A stretch of DNA of 32,873 nucleotides from Cryomorphaceae bacterium. Lineage in GTDB: Bacteria; Bacteroidota; Bacteroidia; Flavobacteriales; Schleiferiaceae. Position 1 is the stretch's first letter; each line of letters opens with the position of its first letter. The stretch lies in contig JAHEGI010000002.1 in the NCBI GenBank assembly GCA_024639785.1, positions 225,239-258,111 of the forward strand. The letters are read 5' to 3'. The notes beneath the pieces are model-generated. The model saw nothing but the letters and a program-made list of their open reading frames with translations. It was not told where the DNA came from and did no database searches. The translations under genes and the position numbers were made by a program. Positions 15,966 to 27,650 of the stretch are shown here, piece by piece.

Positions 15966-18230
15966 ATGGCATTTGATATTGAAATGATTCGTGGCTTTTA
16001 TGAGCGCTTCCCTGGACGCGTGGCAGCTGCACGAACCGTCGTTGGTCACCCGTTGACCCTCTCTGAAAAAATCCTTTACGCCCACCTATGGCAGGGGGAT
16101 GCAACCGAGGCACATCAACGTGGAGCCTCTTATGTGGACTTCGCACCAGACCGAGTAGCTATGCAAGATGCCACGGCACAAATGGCGCTTCTACAGTTCA
16201 TGCAAGCAGGCCGCAAGCAAGCGGCTGTCCCCTCTACGGTACATTGTGATCACCTGATCCAAGCGCGCGTGGGCGCTTCGACCGACCTCCAAGAGGCGGT
16301 GAACAAGAGCAACGAGGTCTTCAATTTCTTGGCATCGGTATCCAATAAATATGGGATTGGCTTCTGGAAGCCCGGAGCGGGTATCATCCACCAAGTGGTT
16401 TTAGAAAACTATGCATTCCCTGGTGGAATGATGATTGGAACGGATTCGCACACGGTGAATGCTGGCGGTCTCGGCATGGTCGCTATCGGTGTAGGTGGCG
16501 CGGACGCCGTAGACGTAATGGCCGGTATGGCGTGGGAATTGAAATTCCCCAAGCTCATCGGTGTCAAATTGACCGGAGAACTCAACGGATGGGCCTCGGC
16601 CAAGGACGTGATTCTTAAAGTAGCCGGAATTCTTACGGTGAAGGGTGGTACGGGCTGCATTGTCGAGTATTTTGGAGAAGGTGCTGAGTCCCTTTCATGT
16701 ACTGGAAAGGGAACCATTTGTAACATGGGTGCCGAAATTGGTGCGACCACCTCGACGTTTGCTTACGATGCCTCAATGGAGCGCTACTTGCGCGCCACAG
16801 ATCGCAGCGATGTAGCGGATTTGGCCAATACCGTAGCGGGCGAACTCACGGCAGACACGGATGTATATGCCCATCCTGAGAAGTACTTTGATCAAGTTAT
16901 CGAGATTGACCTGTCTACGCTCGAACCCCATGTCAATGGACCGTTCACGCCTGATTTGGCTACGCCCATCTCCAAGCTCGGGGAAGTAGCCAAAGCAAAT
17001 CAGTGGCCCCTGGACGTGCAAGTAGGCTTGATCGGATCTTGTACGAACTCCTCCTACGAGGATTTGACTCGGGCCGCATCCGTAGCGAAGCAGGCGGCAG
17101 CCAAAAATTTGGCCGTGCAGTCAGAATACAGCGTCACCCCTGGATCAGAGCAAGTCCGCTACACGGCGGAGCGCGATGGATTACTTGGGGAATTTGAAGC
17201 GATTGGAGGAAAGGTCTTCGCCAATGCCTGTGGTCCTTGCATCGGTCAATGGGCCCGTGAAGGGGCTGACCAAGGTGAGAAGAATACCATTGTCCATTCC
17301 TTCAACCGAAACTTCGCGAAGCGTGCCGATGGCAATCCCAACACACACGCATTCGTGGCTTCCCCTGAAATTGTGACTGCGTTAGCGATTGCCGGACGTT
17401 TGGATTTTAACCCACTCACAGACACCTTGGTAAATCAATCGGGTGAAGCGGTCCGCCTGGATCCTCCGGTGGGTGAAGAGCTTCCATCACGCGGTTATGC
17501 GGTGGAGGATGCGGGCTACCAAGCCCCTGCAGCTGATGGCTCTGGGGTAGTTGTCGCGGTGAATCCGGAAAGCCAACGTCTCCAGTTGCTGGATTCATTT
17601 GCAGCCTGGGATGGCCAGAATATTTCTGGTGCCAAATTGTTGATCAAGGCGCAAGGCAAGTGCACAACGGATCACATTTCTATGGCTGGTCCATGGTTGC
17701 GCTACCGTGGTCATTTGGACAACATCGCAAATAACACGCTAACCGGCGCCGTGAATGCGTTCAATGGCGGAACAAACTCGGTGCTTAACCAACTCAGTGG
17801 GGAGTACGGGGAAGTTCCAGCGGTGCAACGAGCCTATAAAGCCGCGGGCATCCCTACCCTTGTAGTGGGTGACCAGAATTATGGGGAAGGATCGTCGCGT
17901 GAACACGCCGCCATGCAGCCGCGTCACCTCGGGGTTCGTGCGGTCTTAGTGAAGAGTTTCGCGCGTATTCACGAAACCAACCTGAAGAAGCAGGGCATGT
18001 TGGCCTTGACTTTTGTGGATGAAGCGGACTATGATGTCATTCAAGAGCAAGATGTCATTGACTTTGCGGACTTGACGTCGTTTGCTCCAGGTAAGCCTTT
18101 GACTTTAGTTTTCCATCACCAAGATGGTAGCCAACATCAAGTCTTGGCCAATCATACGTACAATGAACAGCAAATTGAATGGTTTAAGGCGGGCAGTGCC
18201 CTCAACCTGATCAAGCAAGGTCAGGCGTAA
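15966..18230 (+). CDS. acnA: Aconitate hydratase, mitochondrial-type
   Basis: Iron-sulfur enzyme that interconverts citrate and isocitrate in the TCA cycle. The 754-residue product is of the mitochondrial-like class, shorter than E. coli AcnA (about 890) and not AcnB-like. The three cluster ligands are visible: Cys359 in [14 protein letters not shown], and Cys422 and Cys425 in [11 protein letters not shown]. Substrate-site motifs include [13 protein letters not shown] (about 158-170) and, in the swivelling C-terminal domain, [14 protein letters not shown] with the catalytic Ser. It has its own TATTTTTG box with a palindrome next to it and is followed by a strong terminator, so it is probably transcribed alone. 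The symbol acnA is used in the broad sense common for this class. Confidence 0.95.
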
Positions 18231-18258
18231 ATCAACCATGCGTTTATAAGTATTCAAG

Positions 18259-18287
18259 GCCGCAGCTTCACCAGCTGCGGCTTTTTT
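18259..18287 (+). terminator. Intrinsic terminator after aconitase
   Basis: A 9-bp perfect stem GCCGCAGCT (18259-18267) and AGCTGCGGC (18273-18281) with loop TCACC is followed by six T. It lies 28 bp after the stop codon and only 13 bp before the next start, so it separates aconitase from the MFS-led gene run. Confidence 0.92.
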
Positions 18288-18300
18288 ATACCTTCCCCGT

Positions 18301-19584
18301 ATGGACTACTCAAAACGTACTCAATGGGGTTGGGCGATGTATGACTGGGCAAATTCGTCCTATAGCTTAGTCATTGGCACGGCCATTTTCCCGATCTACT
18401 ATGCGGCAGTGATGGAAGGTGCCGGCAAAGAGGGATTCGCGTTTTTTGGGGGGCATATAAGCACGACTGCGGCCTACACCTTTGCGGTGGCAGCGTCTTT
18501 TTTGACCGTAAGTCTTATCACGCCCTACCTCAGCGCCCTTGCGGAATTAGGTGGGTCGAAAAAGCAGTTCATGCGCGGATTTATTTATGCGGGTTCTGTG
18601 GCCTGTATGGGCATGTACTTTTTTACCGAAGAGGCCCTTTGGTGGGGATTGCTCGCTCCCTATCTCGCCTCCTTTTGTTTCAGTGGAAGCCTAGTATTTT
18701 ACAACTCCTACCTACCAGAAATCGCCCCTGCGGAGGCCCAGGATGCGCTCTCCGCACGTGGATTTGCCCTCGGATATTTGGGTTCGAGTTTGGTGCTCAT
18801 TGCGGCATTAGCATGCATTCAAAACCCGAATTGGTTTAATCAAGAGGGGGTGGGTTGGATCACGCGAATGAGCTTTGTGACAGTGGGACTGTGGTGGCTC
18901 GGCTGGGGTGAGTATTCCTTGAGCCGATTACCAAAAGGGCATAAGGTGGCCGACCAGATTCGAGAGAAAGGGTGGATTCGCGCAGCCTACCATCAGGTGT
19001 TTGCCGTAGTGAAGGAATTTCGTGCCATGCAAGGCGTACAACGCTTCCTGATAGGATTTTTCTTTGCGTCTGCAGGCGTCCAGACAATCATTCTTATTGC
19101 CTCTTTATTTGGCACGAAGGTACTTGGCTTAGAAACCTCGGCCTTGATTACAACGATTTTACTCATCCAGTTTGTTGGAATTCTCGGTTCTTGGATCTTC
19201 AGCAAGCTGAGTGCATGGTGGGGCAATTTGCGTGCATTGATCTTAGCGGGATTCCTGTGGGTTTGCATATGTGCTTTAGCCTACGTCGTGGATACCGAAA
19301 CACAGTTTTATCTGCTGGGATCCGCTGTCGGCTTGGTCCTAGGTGGAATACAATCCCTTGCACGTTCCACGTTTTCCAAGTTGTTGCCCGCAGAGGGGGA
19401 GCATGTGACCTATTTCAGTTTTTTTGATATTGCGGAAAAACTGGCGACAGTCCTCGGCATGGTGGCCGTTGGGTGGATGGAGACAATGACCGGTGATTTG
19501 CGGCTTTCCGCTTTATTGCTTTCCGCTTTTTTCCTTTGTGCGGTAATCGCATGGATGGGCGTCAAAACGGCACAAAAGTTGTAA
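18301..19584 (+). CDS. MFS transporter, UMF1/Atg22-like family
   Basis: Inner-membrane transporter of 427 residues with about 12 hydrophobic segments. It resembles the UMF1/vacuole-effluxer Atg22-like branch of the major facilitator superfamily: the N-terminal WAMYDWANSSYSLVIGTAIFPIYYA (about residues 11-35) is the family hallmark. FYNSYLPEIAP (near residue 138) and GGIQSLARSTFSKLLP (near residue 350) also fit. Yeast Atg22 exports amino acids from the vacuole; bacterial members are poorly characterised and the substrate here is unknown. It is the first gene after the aconitase terminator, with TACCTTCC (18291-18298), an imperfect -7 box, 2 bp before its ATG. The cytochrome lipoprotein gene follows 10 bp later, so it probably leads that operon. 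Confidence 0.85.
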   Translation: MDYSKRTQWGWAMYDWANSSYSLVIGTAIFPIYYAAVMEGAGKEGFAFFGGHISTTAAYTFAVAASFLTVSLITPYLSALAELGGSKKQFMRGFIYAGSVACMGMYFFTEEALWWGLLAPYLASFCFSGSLVFYNSYLPEIAPAEAQDALSARGFALGYLGSSLVLIAALACIQNPNWFNQEGVGWITRMSFVTVGLWWLGWGEYSLSRLPKGHKVADQIREKGWIRAAYHQVFAVVKEFRAMQGVQRFLIGFFFASAGVQTIILIASLFGTKVLGLETSALITTILLIQFVGILGSWIFSKLSAWWGNLRALILAGFLWVCICALAYVVDTETQFYLLGSAVGLVLGGIQSLARSTFSKLLPAEGEHVTYFSFFDIAEKLATVLGMVAVGWMETMTGDLRLSALLLSAFFLCAVIAWMGVKTAQKL

Positions 19585-19594
19585 TCTTCAACCT

Positions 19595-19951
19595 ATGAAT
19601 GCGCTTCGAATTTTAGCTCTAATCCTCACGTTGAGCCTTGGTTCATGTTATTACGATCATGCGGATGAACTCTATGGTAGCACCCCTTGCGATGTTTCTT
19701 CCGTGACCTGGACGGTGGATATTCAGCCCATGCTGCAGGCGCAATGCGTGTCTTGCCATTCGGGAGCCTCGCCTTCGGGAGGAAAGGATTTGAGTACCTA
19801 TGCCAATGTCAAGCTCTATTTAGGTGGGGCCGTAAGCCGAATGAATAAGCCTTTGGGAGATCCGCTGATTATGCCGCCAAGTGGACCACTCGCTACCTGT
19901 ATTTTGAATAAATTAGACGCATGGGTAGCTGCTGGCGCCCTCGAAAATTAA
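19595..19951 (+). CDS. Monohaem c-type cytochrome lipoprotein
   Basis: Small periplasmic or outer-membrane-anchored cytochrome of 118 residues. A lipoprotein signal peptide ends at the lipobox LGSC (Cys18). The haem motif is CVSCH (Cys51, Cys54, His55), and Met93 in LIMPPSG is the likely distal ligand. Cys32 and Cys102 flank the domain and may form a disulfide. The domain from Cys32 to the end aligns by eye with the C-terminal half of the dihaem protein at 21386-22039: both have C-D near the start, an AQCVxCH haem site, L-x-x-Y-A, PL(I)MPP, a later Cys and a Trp-x-x-x-G ending. It lies 10 bp after the MFS gene and 11 bp before the YceI gene. It presumably carries electrons within the envelope; the partner is not known. 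Confidence 0.85.
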   Translation: MNALRILALILTLSLGSCYYDHADELYGSTPCDVSSVTWTVDIQPMLQAQCVSCHSGASPSGGKDLSTYANVKLYLGGAVSRMNKPLGDPLIMPPSGPLATCILNKLDAWVAAGALEN

Positions 19952-19962
19952 CCTTTGAACCT

Positions 19963-20508
19963 ATGAAAAAGTCGCTAACTCTTGCGGTTGCCCTGTTGGC
20001 CGTGTTCTCCGCATCTGCTCAAAAATTGGTCAGCCGAGAAACCTATGTGCATTTCTTCTCCGAGACGCCCATTGAGGATATTGAAGCCCATTTAAATGAT
20101 GGGGTGGGCCTGTTAAATACGGAGAACAATGAATTCGTTTTCCAGGTAACAATCCAGTCCTTCACCTTCGAAAAGGCCCTGATGCAAGAGCATTTCAATG
20201 AAAACTATATGGAGTCAAGCAAGTATCCTAAAGCCATTTTTAAAGGCAAGGTGCTTGGCGACGTGAGCTATGCCAAGCCAGGAAGCTACTCGGTTACTTT
20301 GGACGGAGAAATGACCATCCACGGGAAAGCGAACAAAGCAAAAGTCCCTGCCGTCATTCAGGTGAGTAAGGATGGCTTGGTGGTGCTAGAATCCACCTTC
20401 ATCGTGAAGCCGACAGACTATGACATCGAAATTCCGAGCATGGTCGTCACCAAAATTGCGAAGGAACTCGAGGTGAAAGTGAAGTCCACCCTTCGCGCAC
20501 TCCGCTAA
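19963..20508 (+). CDS. YceI family periplasmic lipid-binding protein
   Basis: YceI-family protein with a lipocalin-like beta-barrel; structurally characterised members bind long isoprenoid chains such as polyprenyl quinones. The 181-residue product begins with a signal peptide (MKKSLTLAVALLAVFSASAQ, residues 1-20). The mature part has the family pattern: HFFSETPIEDIEAH, then FVFQVTIQSFTFEKALMQEHFNENYM, YPKAIFKGKV, GEMTIHGKAN and a final EIPSMVV-type strand. The start at 19963 gives a clean signal peptide; the in-frame ATG at 19921 lies inside the preceding gene. The stop codon shares its last base with the next ATG (TAATG), so translation is coupled to the DUF5777-like barrel. Position between two haem lipoproteins suggests a redox or quinone-related role. 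Confidence 0.9.
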   Translation: MKKSLTLAVALLAVFSASAQKLVSRETYVHFFSETPIEDIEAHLNDGVGLLNTENNEFVFQVTIQSFTFEKALMQEHFNENYMESSKYPKAIFKGKVLGDVSYAKPGSYSVTLDGEMTIHGKANKAKVPAVIQVSKDGLVVLESTFIVKPTDYDIEIPSMVVTKIAKELEVKVKSTLRALR

Positions 20509-21383
20509 TGCGACAACTGTTTTTCCTCGGGTTAGTTCTTTTAGGCAGCTCCCTTCGGGCGCAGGATGACTTAATGGCGGAACTCGAGTTGTTGGCTCCA
20601 GCACCGACAAAGTCCTATAGTTACGCAACGTTTAAGGGTACTCGAGTAATCAATCAGCAGTCCATTGAGCTCCCGGGCAAGGGAGTGGGTCAGTTCGTTA
20701 TTGGTCACCGATTTGGGGCCTTAAATGATCGACCACTCTACAATCTCTTTGGCTTGGATGTGGCCCAAATTCGTTTTGAGTACAGCTATTCACCTTATGC
20801 TTGGTTGAATGTGGGTGCTGGCCGCTCTTCAGGCTCCAAGACCTACGACACTTTTGCTAAAATCCGATTCCTACGTCAGTCTTCTGGCTCTGGGTGGAAT
20901 TCTCCGGTTTCCATGGCGTATTACACGAGTGCAACGCTTGTCACGACGCCGTTTTCCGATGGATTTGACCATTACTTTACCGATCGACTCGCCTATACGC
21001 ACCAAGTCTTGGTGGCTCGAAAATTCACGGATGCGCTTTCCTTGCAGCTCTCCCCAACCTTGGTGCATTTTAATCTGGTGCCCACGGTGGCCGATGCGAA
21101 TGATCAATGGGCTCTTTCTTTTGCTGGACGATATAAATTGACACAGCGAATGGCCCTGACTGCAGAGTACATGCTGAACCTAAACGCCGTGGATGGTTAC
21201 CACAATTCGGGCAGCATTGGCCTAGATATTGAAACGGGAGGGCATGTATTCCAATTCCATTTGACCAACTCCCGTTCGATGGCAGATCCCCAATGGATGA
21301 TGCAGACTCCGGGACAGTGGAGCCGTGGGGACATTTTTCTTGGGTTCAATATTACGCGTGTATTCACCCACGTGAGACCTTGA
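20508..21383 (+). CDS. DUF5777-like outer-membrane beta-barrel protein
   Basis: Predicted outer-membrane barrel of 291 residues. A signal peptide (residues 1-18, ending SSLRAQ) is followed by repeated amphipathic, aromatic strands such as VGQFVIGHRFGALN, IRFEYSYSPYAWLNVGAG, TYDTFAKIRFL and ALTAEYMLNLNAV, ending in a strand with FLGFNITRVF. The pattern, size and setting beside a YceI gene and c-type cytochromes match the DUF5777 barrel family of Bacteroidota. The function of the family is not established to my knowledge. The start overlaps the YceI stop by 1 bp and the dihaem cytochrome gene follows after 2 bp, the tightest spacing in this operon. A pore or scaffold for the neighbouring haem proteins is possible but speculative. 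Confidence 0.78.
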   Translation: MRQLFFLGLVLLGSSLRAQDDLMAELELLAPAPTKSYSYATFKGTRVINQQSIELPGKGVGQFVIGHRFGALNDRPLYNLFGLDVAQIRFEYSYSPYAWLNVGAGRSSGSKTYDTFAKIRFLRQSSGSGWNSPVSMAYYTSATLVTTPFSDGFDHYFTDRLAYTHQVLVARKFTDALSLQLSPTLVHFNLVPTVADANDQWALSFAGRYKLTQRMALTAEYMLNLNAVDGYHNSGSIGLDIETGGHVFQFHLTNSRSMADPQWMMQTPGQWSRGDIFLGFNITRVFTHVRP

Positions 21384-21385
21384 GC

Positions 21386-22039
21386 ATGAATCGCATTGTT
21401 CTCCCGTGGCTTTTTCTTTCTTTCGCGTGGTGTGCGGGGTCATGTAGTCATCAGGTTGCGCCTATGGACTGTGACCCGGGGACCGTGGATTTTACCCATG
21501 AGGTATTACCCCTGATCCAATCCAATTGTGCTATGTCGGGTTGCCATGTAGGAGTCAATGCCCCAGATGGCGTCCGTTTAACGAATTACCCCCAAATCAT
21601 ACAGCATGTCAAAGCGGGTAAACCCGACCAGAGCCATCTCTATGAGTCCATCGTGAGTACAGGGGGGCATCGTATGCCGCCGGCCCCTATGAGTCCGTTG
21701 AGTCAAGCGCTGAAAGATTTGATTCGCCTATGGATTGCTCAAGGCGCTTTGGAGACGAATTGCAATAATGCGGGTTGTGACACCTTGGCTCAGGCGTCTT
21801 GGGCACAGGTTTCCAATGTGTTTAATGCGCAATGTGTAGGCTGCCACCAGGCGGCTGGAGCGAGTGGTAATGTTCGATTGGATGATTATGCGGAAGCCGT
21901 ATATGCAGTGAATAGCCGCGGACTAGCCTCGACACTTCATGGAACCAATGGCGCGCCCTTGATGCCCCCCAACGGGGGAACTTCGGCATGCGACGTAGCC
22001 ATCATTGAGCGCTGGATACGAACAGGAACACCCCAATAG
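21386..22039 (+). CDS. Dihaem c-type cytochrome lipoprotein with a CX4CH site
   Basis: Envelope cytochrome of 217 residues made of two similar domains. The signal peptide ends near AGSC (Cys20, likely lipidated). Domain 1 has the unusual haem motif C-AMSG-C-H (Cys48, Cys53, His54; four residues between the cysteines) and Met97 in RMPP. Domain 2 has the standard CVGCH (Cys150, Cys153, His154) and Met193 in LMPPNGG. Both end in a Trp-Ile-x-x-Gly helix (WIAQGALETN and WIRTGTPQ). Domain 2 matches the monohaem protein at 19595-19951 closely. An in-frame ATG at 21293 would put 31 residues without a signal peptide in front and lies inside the barrel gene, so 21386 was chosen. LhgO follows after 5 bp. 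Confidence 0.85.
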   Translation: MNRIVLPWLFLSFAWCAGSCSHQVAPMDCDPGTVDFTHEVLPLIQSNCAMSGCHVGVNAPDGVRLTNYPQIIQHVKAGKPDQSHLYESIVSTGGHRMPPAPMSPLSQALKDLIRLWIAQGALETNCNNAGCDTLAQASWAQVSNVFNAQCVGCHQAAGASGNVRLDDYAEAVYAVNSRGLASTLHGTNGAPLMPPNGGTSACDVAIIERWIRTGTPQ

Positions 22040-22044
22040 GACGT

Positions 22045-23244
22045 ATGACGCAACGCTTCGATTTTATTGCCGTCGGAGGAGGTATCGTAGGAGCCGCTAC
22101 GGCCTACCAATATGCCCAGCGCCATCCAGGCGCCCGCATCGCCATTCTGGAAAAAGAAAAACGCCCAGCGGCCCATCAAACCGGAAGAAACTCTGGTGTC
22201 ATCCATTCGGGTCTCTATTATGCGCCCGGCTCGCTCAAAGCGCAAACCTGCTTAAAAGGCTATGCTCAGTTGCTGGATTTTTGCGAAGCCCATCAAGTTC
22301 GTTATGAGGTCTGTGGGAAAATAGTCGTCGCTACGAATGAGGAAGAATCAAATCGCCTCGAAATCCTTCAAGAAAGAGGGCGGAAAAACGGCTTAGCGGG
22401 GCTCGAATTTCTAGACTCGAAACAAACCCTAGAGGTCGAGCCGCACATTCAGGCTTTTCGCGCCTTGTGGGTGCCTCAGACGGGCATTGTAGACTACCCA
22501 GGAATGACGGAAGCACTGATTCAACGCGCACTTGCATCGAAAGGCTCCCTACATCTTGAAACGCAGGTAATTTCCATGGAGCGCAAAGGAGATATAACCA
22601 CGCTCAAAAGCCATCAAGGTGACCTTTTTGAGGCACCGCTAGTCGTGGTTTGTGCGGGCCTTCAGAGTGATCGAATGGCACAGATGGATGGCTTAAAAAG
22701 TGCAGTACGCATTGTTCCATTTCGCGGGGATTATTATGATTTGACCCCGGCCGCAGCGCACAAGGTTCGGAATCTCGTCTATCCGGTAGCGGATCCAAAC
22801 TTCCCATTCCTGGGCGTGCATTTTACTCGAATGGTGGATGGCGGCGTGGAATGCGGGCCAAATGCCGTCTTCTCATTTGCCCGTGAGGGCTACCACAAAA
22901 CGGCATTTGACCTCAGGGATTCGGCCTCAGCGCTCAGTTTTGGCGGGACGTGGAGGTTGTTTTCACAGCATTGGCGGTATGGATTGGGAGAATATGAACG
23001 CGCATTCTCAAAAGCCAAATTCCTTCAAGCCCTTCAAAAAATGATGCCTGGTTTAACCATGGAGGACATTGTGCCGGGACGGGCAGGGATTCGCGCGCAA
23101 GCCTTAACCCCTCGAGGGAAACTCGTCGATGATTTTGTCATTGAAAAAGGAGCTGCCGCGGTGCATGTCTTGAATGCTCCCTCGCCGGCAGCCACCGCCT
23201 CCTTGGCGATAGGCGAAGAGATTTTAACGCGTCTCGGCCTCTAA
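22045..23244 (+). CDS. lhgO: L-2-hydroxyglutarate oxidase/dehydrogenase
   Basis: FAD-dependent enzyme of the DAO family that oxidises L-2-hydroxyglutarate to 2-oxoglutarate; the E. coli enzyme passes electrons to the quinone pool. The 399-residue product has the dinucleotide-binding motif VGGGIVGAATAYQ (residues 9-21), then AAHQTGRNSGVIHSGLYYAPG (about 41-61), the LhgO family signature. Near the C-terminus are GRAGIRAQAL and the second FAD segment HVLNAPSPAATASLAIGEEI. Length is standard. It is the last gene of the run begun by the MFS gene, 5 bp after the dihaem cytochrome, and overlaps the end of the convergent deacylase gene by 4 bp. Its place next to haem proteins and YceI would fit electron delivery to quinone, but that link is inference. 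Confidence 0.9.
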   Translation: MTQRFDFIAVGGGIVGAATAYQYAQRHPGARIAILEKEKRPAAHQTGRNSGVIHSGLYYAPGSLKAQTCLKGYAQLLDFCEAHQVRYEVCGKIVVATNEEESNRLEILQERGRKNGLAGLEFLDSKQTLEVEPHIQAFRALWVPQTGIVDYPGMTEALIQRALASKGSLHLETQVISMERKGDITTLKSHQGDLFEAPLVVVCAGLQSDRMAQMDGLKSAVRIVPFRGDYYDLTPAAAHKVRNLVYPVADPNFPFLGVHFTRMVDGGVECGPNAVFSFAREGYHKTAFDLRDSASALSFGGTWRLFSQHWRYGLGEYERAFSKAKFLQALQKMMPGLTMEDIVPGRAGIRAQALTPRGKLVDDFVIEKGAAAVHVLNAPSPAATASLAIGEEILTRLGL

Positions 23245-24251
23245 TGGGCCGCGGTGTCGGGCCATTCGGTTTCTTTACCGATATGGAATAAGGCATCCCC
23301 TCGGTGCACAAGCGGAATGTTGTTATGGCCCACGATGAAACCATCCATTGGACTGAATACTTTGACCGTGTAGGAATCGTATGGATTCCGAATGCGGCCA
23401 ATGAGCTCACCTTCGCGCACTGCCTGGCCACTCTGGCGTTCAAAGGAGAATAAGCCCGAAGCTTCGGCACGGACCCAGGTATTTCCTGCAATGTGGCGGG
23501 GGGATTTCTTGCTGACGCGGTCACGGTCCTTGATGCCATGCGTCTTTGGGGCTTTGGACAACATGCCCAAGCTGTGCAAGAAACGCTTCGTGCCTCGGAT
23601 GGCTTCCTTCACGGCTTTTTCATCTAGGCGCAGAGACTCACCTCCTTCGTACACGATGATGGGCACGCCCATTTCATGTCCACACGCACGAAGGGAGCCG
23701 CTGATGAGGCTGGAGCTCATGCTGATGGGCGCTTGAAAGGCTTGTGCCATGTGAATGGCTTGGGCATCTTCCGGAGCATATCGAATTTGGGGATAATTTG
23801 TCCTGCTCGCGCCACCCGTATGAAAATCAATGCCCATGTCTACGACTGGGAGAATTTTGGTCGAAAGGGTATGTGCCACTTGTGCGGCTAGCGATCCTTG
23901 AGCGGACCCGGGAAAACTTCGGTTGACGTCTTTGCCATCGGGCACCTCACGGCTAAAGAACAAGAAGCCATAGACGTTGATAATCGGCAAGGCGACAACC
24001 GTTCCGCAATGAATATGCTCGAAAATGCCCAAAGAGATCATTCGACGAACGACTTCAATGCCATTCACTTCATCTCCATGCAAGCCCCCGCTAAGGAGGA
24101 TAGTAGGTCCTGGATTCTCACTGCGAAAAACGTGAACAGGCATATGAATCAAGGTGCCTGACAAAAGGCGGGCTACTTGAATTTCAACCGTTTTATTGCT
24201 TCCTGGTGGAATGACAATGTCATCAATGACCAAGACGTCGTCGCTGGTCAT
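23241..24251 (-). CDS. Succinylglutamate desuccinylase/aspartoacylase family protein
   Basis: Zinc hydrolase of the AstE/AspA (M14-like) family, 336 residues. The metal ligands are visible: His58 and Glu61 in GGLHGDEVNG and His144 in IDFHTGG. DVNRSFPG (108-115) supplies the conserved Asn-Arg pair. The last 80 residues form a second, beta-rich domain (ASGLFSFERQSGQAVREGE, then FSPMDGFIVG) resembling a biotinyl/lipoyl-like hairpin, usual in this subgroup. Family members deacylate N-acyl amino acids; the true substrate of this subgroup is unclear. Its ATG follows the purB stop codon directly (TAA then ATG), so it is translated from the purB mRNA. RimK-type ligases often accompany such genes, from memory, but none is in the window. 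Confidence 0.85.
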   Translation of the reverse strand: MTSDDVLVIDDIVIPPGSNKTVEIQVARLLSGTLIHMPVHVFRSENPGPTILLSGGLHGDEVNGIEVVRRMISLGIFEHIHCGTVVALPIINVYGFLFFSREVPDGKDVNRSFPGSAQGSLAAQVAHTLSTKILPVVDMGIDFHTGGASRTNYPQIRYAPEDAQAIHMAQAFQAPISMSSSLISGSLRACGHEMGVPIIVYEGGESLRLDEKAVKEAIRGTKRFLHSLGMLSKAPKTHGIKDRDRVSKKSPRHIAGNTWVRAEASGLFSFERQSGQAVREGELIGRIRNPYDSYTVKVFSPMDGFIVGHNNIPLVHRGDALFHIGKETEWPDTAAH

Positions 24252-26070: not shown

Positions 26071-26859
26071 ATGAAGAAAAAAGTACTGCCCTATCGCGAT
26101 CCCTTTGGCTACCCTATTTGGGCTAAGCGGACCGTCATTTTTTGGTTTGGACTTGTGACATGGTACCGCTGCAACCGGATCAACACCCTCAAAGTCTTAG
26201 GCGGCGAAAACCTCAAGGGCCTCCCAAATCAAAATGTGCTCTTTGTGAGTAATCACCAAACTTACTTCATGGATGTGGCTAGTATGTATCTGGTTTTCAG
26301 CCATTCAAAGCATAAGATCTATGACCGAGCTGATCGCTTTTGGCCATTCATTAACCCAAAAATTAATCTCTTTTTCATCGCAGCGAAGGAGACTATGAAA
26401 TCAGGTTTACTCCCCCGGGCGCTCGCGTTGGCCGGTTCTGTGAGCATCAAGCGCACCTGGCGTGAAGCAGGAAAAGACGTGTCGCGCAATGTGGATTCGC
26501 GTGATTTGGACAACATCAAAAAGGCGATTCAAAGCGGCTGGGTCATCACTTTTCCTCAAGGGACGACGAAGCCTTATGTCCCGGGCAGACGAGGAACAGC
26601 GCACATCATCAAGCAGCTGAACCCCGTGGTGGTCCCAGTGGTCATTGATGGTTACCGTCGGGCGTTTGACAAAAAAGGCCTTCGGACCAAGAAGCGGGGC
26701 TCCACCATGACCATGCGTTTCAAGCCTCCGATGACTTTTGATCTGACAGCCAGTCCTCAAGCGATTCTGGACGAGATTATGGACGCCATTGAGCAATCAC
26801 CAATGCATCAAGGAATTCGTACCTTGGAGCCGGTAAAAAACAGCGAAAACGTCGGATGA
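26071..26859 (+). CDS. 1-acyl-glycerol-3-phosphate acyltransferase-like protein
   Basis: PlsC-superfamily acyltransferase, 262 residues, expected to acylate a lysophospholipid or another lipid at the inner membrane. The N-terminal 35 residues are basic and then hydrophobic (RTVIFWFGLVTWYRC). Motif 1 is NHQTYFMD (His62 to Asp68), with five residues between His and Asp instead of the usual four. Motif 3 reads FPQGTTKP (161-168), with Gln163 where Glu is usual, followed by VPGRRGTAHI. The C-terminal region is basic (KKGLRTKKRGSTMTMRF). The start at 26071 is chosen because an in-frame ATG at 26050 would lie before the TACTTTTG promoter box. Its stop overlaps the MbnP-like ATG (ATGA). The exact lipid substrate is unknown. 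Confidence 0.82.
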   Translation: MKKKVLPYRDPFGYPIWAKRTVIFWFGLVTWYRCNRINTLKVLGGENLKGLPNQNVLFVSNHQTYFMDVASMYLVFSHSKHKIYDRADRFWPFINPKINLFFIAAKETMKSGLLPRALALAGSVSIKRTWREAGKDVSRNVDSRDLDNIKKAIQSGWVITFPQGTTKPYVPGRRGTAHIIKQLNPVVVPVVIDGYRRAFDKKGLRTKKRGSTMTMRFKPPMTFDLTASPQAILDEIMDAIEQSPMHQGIRTLEPVKNSENVG

Positions 26860-27650
26860 ACCCTATGAAACGCATCACTTTGATCCTTGCTGCGGCCTTG
26901 CTTGGCATGGCGGCGTGCGAAAAGACCATCCTTCCCGAGGATGCGAGCTATGACCAGCGAAACGTGGTGCTGAAGCACTTTTTGTACTTCGATGGCGTGA
27001 CCATGGATACGAACAAGCGCTTCATGCTAGGGAATGCCGAGGTGCGCTTTCAGGATATTGAAATTGTTTTTGGCGAGTACTACTTCACCGACCACTTGGA
27101 TGATACGTTGACTCCTAATTTTAAGGACACGGTAAACCCCTATGTGTTTGATCCGGTAGCCGCTTCTTTGGCTTACAATACAGATGCGCGGTTGTACCGA
27201 CTCCCCAAGGGCGTATACTCAGGTTCACATCACTTCCGAATGGGGCTGGACTCTACAGCGAATGCGACGCCGCCAAGCGCCTTGCGCGAAGGGCATAGCC
27301 TGCGCCACCCTGGCGTCCATCGCGGGGAAGGTAACGGGTATAATATTCTGTATATCAAAGGACTGTATCGTGACGCGATGGACACCACAATCTTAACTCC
27401 GGACAAGCCTTTTGTATACCGAGTTTCTAATGAGCTCATGAGTTTAGATTGGTTCAAATCCATGTCTTTCAACGTAGTGCCGAACCGTGATGTCAATATC
27501 AACATCGTTTGGGACATTGATAAACTCCTCCTGGGGGTGGATCCATTGTTGGTAGATGACTTAGATGTAGATCCAAGCGATCCCATTGCAGCTGGCCTAT
27601 ATCCCACGATCAAGGGGAATATGGAGGCGTCCTACAGCATTCAGCTTTAA
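26856..27650 (+). CDS. MbnP-like copper-binding-family lipoprotein
   Basis: Envelope lipoprotein of 264 residues with a signal peptide ending at GMAAC (Cys21). The body fits the MbnP/MopE-type family by its ordered motifs: FLYFDGVTMDTNKRFMLG, then a strand with VRFQDIEIVFGEYYFTD, LPKGVYSGSHHFRMGLDSTAN (about 117-137), and GNGYNILYIKGLYRD (about 160-174). The family is linked to copper through methanotroph relatives. In the usual pattern, as I recall it, a Trp-rich MxWxWNxGYIF segment precedes the last motif; here it reads GVHRGEGNGYNILYI, without Trp, so metal binding may differ. Translation starts in an ATGA overlap with the acyltransferase gene (a second ATG lies 9 bp on). Mpl follows after 9 bp. 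Confidence 0.7.
   Translation: MNPMKRITLILAAALLGMAACEKTILPEDASYDQRNVVLKHFLYFDGVTMDTNKRFMLGNAEVRFQDIEIVFGEYYFTDHLDDTLTPNFKDTVNPYVFDPVAASLAYNTDARLYRLPKGVYSGSHHFRMGLDSTANATPPSALREGHSLRHPGVHRGEGNGYNILYIKGLYRDAMDTTILTPDKPFVYRVSNELMSLDWFKSMSFNVVPNRDVNINIVWDIDKLLLGVDPLLVDDLDVDPSDPIAAGLYPTIKGNMEASYSIQL

Follow-up and report, generated by a model that had tools for sequence, protein, structure and literature searches.

A DUF5777 outer-membrane barrel, a YceI lipocalin and one-electron lipoproteins form a recurring gene set in Bacteroidota with a possible role in lipid redox chemistry

Results

Four exported proteins are encoded in one tight gene run

We analysed a stretch of 32,873 nucleotides from a Cryomorphaceae bacterium (GenBank assembly GCA_024639785.1, contig JAHEGI010000002.1, positions 225,239 to 258,111 of the forward strand), hereafter the window, and within it four adjacent genes on the + strand that encode a monohaem c-type lipoprotein of 118 amino acids (aa) (19595..19951), a YceI-family lipocalin of the DUF5777-linked type (19963..20508; 181 aa including the signal peptide), a DUF5777 outer-membrane β-barrel of 12 predicted strands (20508..21383; 291 aa including the signal peptide) and a dihaem c-type lipoprotein (21386..22039; 217 aa from the ATG at 21386). 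The genes are spaced by 11, −1 and 2 base pairs (bp), the start of the barrel gene overlapping the stop of the YceI gene by 1 bp. The longest open reading frame (ORF) for YceI begins at 19921, and the ATG at 19963 yields both a signal peptide and the 11-bp spacing. The ORFs and their translations confirm the four genes, the spacings and the export signals that an earlier note had read from this DNA. The source genome (22 contigs, 1.82 Mb, 98.33% complete) contains one DUF5777 gene and two YceI genes.

The two lipoproteins are predicted c-type cytochromes. The monohaem protein combines a signal peptide and the lipobox LGSC with a single CVSCH site and an MPP motif near the C terminus; the dihaem protein carries the lipobox AGSC and the sites CAMSGCH (CX4CH) and CVGCH, with an MPP motif after each, so that all three exported haem sites are followed by a candidate methionine ligand. 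Pfam assigns the dihaem protein to PSCyt1 (39.2 bits, cut-off 22) and Cytochrome_CBB3 (32.8 bits, cut-off 27). The monohaem protein remains under every Pfam cut-off (best match PccH, 20.6 bits vs 24.4) and groups with a haem-lipoprotein cluster built from 98 related loci. The CX4CH form is seen in 50 of 164 single-site proteins of the family and in all 55 of its two-site proteins, and an MP pair follows the haem site in 159 of 164 and 55 of 55 proteins, respectively (181 loci, defined below). Cytochrome-c assembly proteins and a COX1 oxidase are encoded in the source genome.

The barrel is a clear DUF5777 protein with a generic porin fold

The barrel matches PF19089 (DUF5777) with 274.7 bits (cut-off 23.1) over profile positions 1–247 of 247. 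Its nearest named relatives, among the best 80 of 584, come from an uncultured Cryomorphaceae (63% identity in the best segment) and from a member of the Schleiferiaceae (58%). The earlier note knew of no established function for the family, and we found none in print: no paper in the open-licence PubMed Central (PMC) literature names DUF5777, subscription papers and preprints lying outside this coverage.

Structure prediction yields an N-terminal helix and a barrel of 12 strands (predicted local distance difference test (pLDDT) 92.0, predicted template modelling score (pTM) 0.84). A search by sequence returned no solved relative below an E value of 0.5; by fold, the best solved matches are nearly tied between FapF (Z 18.1), KdgM (17.7), NanC (17.1) and the COG4313 channel (16.9), and Foldseek likewise returns generic porins and small outer-membrane channels. 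MtrB/PioB-type porins are not among the fold matches listed for the barrel, a list that is no proof against them. The computed backbone radius is ~11.6 Å for 12 strands, compared with 25 Å for 26 strands.

Across an alignment of 45 barrels, ten columns show no variation (45/45; Q19, H67, F69, G82, Q124, P133, H246, F248, G279 and F280). With residue facing derived from hydropathy and not from coordinates, the strand positions that face outward are no less conserved than those that face inward (2.54 vs 2.36), and H67, F69, H246, F248, F280 and R284 point outward on strands b1, b11 and b12, which are adjacent in the closed barrel. This conserved b11–b12–b1 face, as assigned from hydropathy, suggests contact with a partner, an oligomer or lipid.

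The gene set recurs across Bacteroidota

Of the 392 Bacteroidota genomes in the sample, 162 contain a DUF5777 match at E ≤ 0.001 (in 159 it exceeds the cut-off; 85 of 179 genera); the profile search matched none of 14 control genomes. We compared gene neighbourhoods at 180 loci from other genomes, which comprise (i) 100 loci picked from the best-scoring DUF5777 matches listed and spread over genera, including paralogues and leaving weaker matches unrepresented, and (ii) 80 loci from the best 80 of 584 confirmed DUF5777 relatives, which lean to near relatives; together with the window they make 181. All ORFs were counted, and a neighbour is a gene on the same strand within 4.5 kilobases (kb) of the DUF5777 gene. 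Titles in the 80-locus set name Bacteroidales, Flavobacteriales, Chitinophagaceae, Saprospiraceae and Cytophagales, and one names Rickettsiales, possibly a mislabelled bin. Cultured species that carry the set include Salibacter halophilus (L190) and Dyadobacter fermentans (L161), besides Hymenobacter.

YceI is a neighbour of DUF5777 at 149 of 180 loci (78/100 and 71/80), a haem lipoprotein at 148 (78/100 and 70/80), and YceI together with a haem or Rieske carrier at 136 (69/100 and 67/80). The suggestion in the earlier note that the genes act as one unit thus holds well beyond this genome. Of the four-gene composition that it proposed, the core of carrier, YceI and barrel stands; the dihaem gene is frequent and not universal, a two-site haem protein being present at 13 of 100 and 39 of 80 loci. 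As judged from gene content, the four parts form one tight run whose core of one-electron lipoprotein, YceI and DUF5777 recurs across Bacteroidota.

By our own arithmetic, given the handful of YceI genes that a genome carries, one would lie within such a 9-kb interval by chance in a few per cent of cases at most. As controls we took 20 loci centred on ordinary YceI genes, namely the highest-scoring ones in DUF5777-bearing genomes; they contain neither DUF5777 (0/20) nor a haem lipoprotein (0/20), which rules out chance adjacency. One control locus (L230) has a weak Rieske-profile match of 23.9 bits in a 361-aa protein.

Including the window, 151 of 181 loci have a same-strand YceI gene, which in 123 cases lies between −90 and +60 bp from the barrel gene. 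YceI comes first at 122 of the 151 loci and the barrel at 29; an order that is shuffled while the neighbourhood is kept argues for a functional tie rather than for inheritance of one block. At 5 of 181 loci YceI is on the opposite strand. The set is also found on plasmids: all four plasmid records with a DUF5777 gene are from Bacteroidota, NCBI uses the name DUF5777 on them, and YceI adjoins the barrel gene or is one gene away. On pEMTOL02, a plasmid of Emticicia, a ccsA gene on the opposite strand is followed in turn by genes for a sigma factor, an outer-membrane beta-barrel protein, a Rieske protein, DUF5777, YceI and a c-type cytochrome. On the Hymenobacter volaticus plasmid unnamed5 (L242), genes for a truncated haemoglobin and hemA follow the YceI–DUF5777 pair, and the plasmid has a second annotated copy of the same YceI protein accession.

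Two further kinds of gene accompany the set at some loci. Many loci (30/100 and 40/80) add to the set a protein with an OB-fold (tRNA_anti-like, PF12869). None is encoded beside the set in the window, and a PF12869 search of the source genome gave no match, from which absence does not follow, since the controls gave none either. A sigma factor paired with a barrel-domain protein lies on the same strand near DUF5777 at 14 of 100 and 8 of 80 loci. COX1 was found in 376 of the 392 genomes, and none of the 16 genomes without it has DUF5777; these 16 represent four family codes, so the result is weak, and with COX1 nearly ubiquitous a test for a link to aerobic respiration has little power.

Cytochrome c and Rieske proteins alternate as carriers

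A Rieske iron-sulphur protein is encoded at 13 of 180 loci (8/100 and 5/80); in one representative Pfam confirms the assignment (PF00355, 43.1 bits). Twelve of these lack a haem lipoprotein within 4.5 kb, L095 being the only Rieske locus that has one as well, and either carrier is present at 85 of 100 and 75 of 80 loci. On a FastTree tree of the 181 barrels the carrier changes between cytochrome and Rieske at least four times. Since Rieske proteins appear mostly where the haem lipoprotein is missing, the third seat of the set would belong to a one-electron carrier and not to haem as such. A one-electron carrier thus seems to be required, with cytochrome c and Rieske as apparently interchangeable cofactors.

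The YceI protein belongs to a clade of its own

The YceI protein matches PF04264 with 48.6 bits (cut-off 23.7), and its model (pLDDT 91.9) aligns with nine solved YceI-family structures (3q34, 5ixg, 5ixh, 2x32, 2x34, 7bwl, 1y0g, 1wub and 3hpe) at Z 18.0–19.7 over 149–161 residues with a root-mean-square deviation of 2.1–2.6 Å; the first unrelated fold follows at Z 10.3. Among these structures are binders of ubiquinone-8 (UQ-8) or isoprenoid (2x32/2x34, a polyisoprenoid-binding domain, and 1wub), and the model bears out the earlier description of a lipid- or quinone-binding type insofar as it predicts the polyisoprenoid/quinone-binding lipocalin fold.

YceI genes are present in 347 of the 392 genomes, with 1 to 9 per genome listed. 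In a tree of 53 DUF5777-paired YceI proteins (every third locus) and 22 ordinary ones, the two kinds split at one branch with a support of 98 in the Shimodaira–Hasegawa-like approximate likelihood-ratio test (SH-aLRT; quick search). On this tree, the YceI protein of the window belongs to a clade dedicated to the DUF5777 setting, and local recruitment of an ordinary YceI is ruled out by the split. In the part of PMC5429918 on which we draw, a YceI gene of Riemerella anatipestifer is merely listed among iron-limitation genes.

YceI-less loci place the barrel beside other electron-transfer proteins

A further group of loci has the DUF5777 and haem lipoprotein genes followed by genes for a 4Fe–4S protein of the twin-arginine translocation (TAT) type, NrfD, a ~285-aa protein and a monohaem cytochrome, with no YceI in the run (L048/L235, L055/L238, L085/L237, L118/L236 and L060). 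The 4Fe–4S cluster is present in 9 and the NrfD cluster in 8 of 98 loci; the ~285-aa protein has no Pfam match over the cut-off. By gene content these loci are a second, NrfD-linked use of the barrel. Elsewhere, a ~340-aa dihaem cytochrome adjoins DUF5777, again with no YceI in the run (L062, L063, L065, L070 and L071).

In L048, L061, L068, L075 and L081, the gene for a haem-b protein of the ethylbenzene-dehydrogenase type (EB_dh) immediately precedes those for the haem lipoprotein and DUF5777, the haem-b domain PF09459 having been checked in L061. Genes for a small cytochrome c and for a COX1-family protein of 469 aa lie downstream of DUF5777 at L237:8161-9904 and L240:12316-14104; we would guess that this pair is possibly NorCB-like.

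Genomic context in the window

The four genes are part of a longer co-directional run. Ten bp upstream lies a gene for an MFS (major facilitator superfamily)/ATG22-type transporter (18301..19584, +; PF11700, 200 bits), and 5 bp downstream the gene for the L-2-hydroxyglutarate oxidase LhgO (22045..23244, +; NF008726, 516.5 bits, cut-off 299). By tblastn, each is also present at 6 of the 180 related loci. In L135, L191 and L205 the LhgO gene comes directly after the barrel gene, in L136 it follows at a distance of ~600 bp, and in the window the two are separated by the dihaem gene. A promoter and terminator scan of 17900–23600 gave the same counts as shuffled sequence and was uninformative. Further along, 26856–27650 encodes an exported lipoprotein-like protein that has no Pfam match at E 1 and that, by eye, we take to be reminiscent of MbnP-type proteins.

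Discussion

A possible redox-lipid relay of the outer membrane

We file the set as a YceI-linked redox system whose new feature is an outer-membrane barrel. From gene content and predicted folds we tentatively propose that it constitutes an outer-membrane redox-lipid relay, to which we assign a probability somewhat short of even. The lipoproteins would be located at the outer membrane, facing the periplasm, where they may receive electrons from the respiratory chain by way of its pool of periplasmic cytochromes. They would reduce, or else oxidise, a hydrophobic lipid with redox activity, for example menaquinone, held in the YceI pocket. YceI would dock at the DUF5777 barrel, which would anchor the relay in the outer membrane and either present the lipid to the membrane or pass a small hydrophobic compound. 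The likeliest purpose, of which we are less sure, would be to provide the outer membrane with reducing power that quenches lipid radicals and peroxides.

Electron exchange between YceI and haem is credible because of the precedents BcnA–LcoA and Cbp2D, described below, and the relay would be a c-type-cytochrome or Rieske counterpart of the YceI–cytochrome b561 system of Burkholderia. Cytochrome b561 (PF01292) gave no match in the 98.33% complete source genome, while the same profile matched 8 of 14 control genomes. If YceI is redox-active here, it must therefore have a different carrier, for which the cytochrome lipoproteins are the natural choice.

Several findings weigh against the relay. 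At 31 of 181 loci, some of them at contig ends, there is no same-strand YceI within 4.5 kb, and the existence of YceI-less loci with other partners indicates, from gene content, that the barrel can dispense with YceI. Some of these loci pair the barrel with the NrfD/4Fe–4S set, with a haem-b (EB_dh) protein or with a dihaem cytochrome, from which it follows that the barrel may serve other electron systems, and this fits a conduit or a general docking role equally well. The paired YceI is just 11–19% identical to solved YceI proteins; at this distance the pocket may hold something other than an isoprenoid or quinone. The neighbouring genes give no particular pointer to oxidative stress, no gene fusion joins any two parts in the 181 loci, and the structures were predicted as single chains.

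Alternative explanations

The missing fusions fit the view that the neighbours share no machine and stand under common regulation, for example by low oxygen or nitric oxide (NO), each with its ordinary job. The truncated haemoglobin and hemA genes after the set in H. volaticus and the Crp-type regulators that adjoin it at some loci point the same way, but the tight, repeated adjacency in shuffled order and the dedicated YceI clade speak against it; we regard it as unlikely, though we rate it above the three explanations that follow. The barrel, together with the lipoprotein cytochromes, might instead carry electrons through the outer membrane, to or from the cell surface, as a porin–cytochrome conduit in the wide sense. 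Haem lipoproteins and an outer-membrane barrel do share one gene run, and in YceI-less relatives the 4Fe–4S protein, NrfD and additional cytochromes after the barrel and haem lipoprotein are a plausible quinone-linked source. However, the set has three haems in total, no multihaem surface cytochrome is encoded in the window, and a Rieske protein with its single cluster also serves as carrier. No protein has more than two haem sites, and the predicted 12-strand barrel is, from its estimated radius, too narrow to house a cytochrome, so that a conduit with a cytochrome inside the barrel is unlikely; the porin–cytochrome conduit that the earlier note had named as one hypothesis, taken in the MtrAB form, does not survive haem number and barrel size as the leading interpretation, and even in the wide sense we consider a conduit distinctly improbable.

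The earlier note had also considered a haem-linked sensor or scaffold, and the sigma factors near related sets raise the possibility that the set senses redox or envelope stress and signals the condition of the outer membrane to a sigma/anti-sigma pair. At 22 of 180 loci a sigma factor of the extracytoplasmic function (ECF) type (Sigma70_r4_2, 61.8 bits) is encoded on the same strand with a protein that has a C-terminal OMP_b-brl_2 domain (29.8 bits, cut-off 27); the pair is so annotated in Emticicia and resembles the Dma/Das pairs as presented in the part of PMC13088901 used here. Neither the window nor 158 of the 180 related loci has this pair, however, and the pair could simply regulate the set, so that we give a sensor less credence again. 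Least probable, in our estimate, is an outer-membrane enzyme in which DUF5777 acts on a lipid through its two invariant histidines, the cytochrome or Rieske protein feeding electrons and YceI carrying substrate or product. H67 and H246 are indeed invariant and outward-facing, and the lipid-acting barrels LpxR (Z 15.0) and OMPLA (Z 12.5) are among the fold matches; these nevertheless rank level with or below the non-enzymatic channels, the facing is a matter of hydropathy rather than coordinates, and the usual topology places one histidine at each end of the barrel, so that they form no single site.

Implications

If the redox-lipid relay exists, it would give a role to DUF5777, a family without a stated function, account for a second YceI clade in so many Bacteroidota and mean that the outer membrane of these bacteria has an electron supply of its own. 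A broader scheme appears rather unlikely to us as a whole: a small barrel would dock a redox-lipid lipocalin, which either of two interchangeable one-electron lipoproteins (cytochrome c or Rieske) would recharge, a third route of electrons to the outer membrane that is neither a haem wire through a wide porin nor a soluble shuttle, and in YceI-less relatives the same barrel family would act as the outer-membrane plug for sources of the NrfD/4Fe–4S type. In cultured species, the relay would make it testable how an outer membrane remote from the respiratory chain uses, or is shielded from, lipid redox chemistry.

Comparison with known systems

Porin–cytochrome conduits of the MtrCAB type combine an outer-membrane barrel with haem proteins. 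The set described here differs from them in its far smaller number of haems, its small barrel and the addition of a lipid-binding protein. Within the DUF5777 (PF19089) family of Bacteroidota the barrel is a clear member, and the partner set is absent from the family definition.

The remaining comparisons draw on parts of the cited sources. Dma/Das are dual-membrane anti-sigma pairs of Bacteroidota (PMC13088901), and the sigma and barrel-domain pairs beside 22 of 180 related sets resemble them by domains only; no sigma or barrel-domain anti-sigma genes lie near the set in the window. Cbp2D of Cellvibrio japonicus joins a YceI domain and two c-type cytochromes in one protein, for which electron transfer has been proposed (PMC8981238). 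Cbp2D and Cbp2E thus share with our set the association of YceI with c-type cytochromes, but there the parts lie in one secreted multidomain protein with a cellulose-binding module and a tie to polysaccharide oxidation, with neither barrel nor lipoprotein. In Burkholderia cenocepacia, the YceI lipocalin BcnA and the cytochrome b561 LcoA guard the envelope against lipid peroxyl radicals, and reduction of the YceI-bound quinone, with the quinone as redox mediator, has been proposed (PMC9113575). As in BcnA–LcoA, a YceI lipocalin is here genetically coupled to a haem redox protein, as read from the genes. Whereas the account of BcnA–LcoA drawn on here has an inner-membrane cytochrome b561, the set in the window is flanked by MFS and LhgO genes with no link to a b561 gene, and in sets of this kind YceI has as partners an outer-membrane barrel and a lipoprotein that is either a c-type cytochrome or a Rieske protein.

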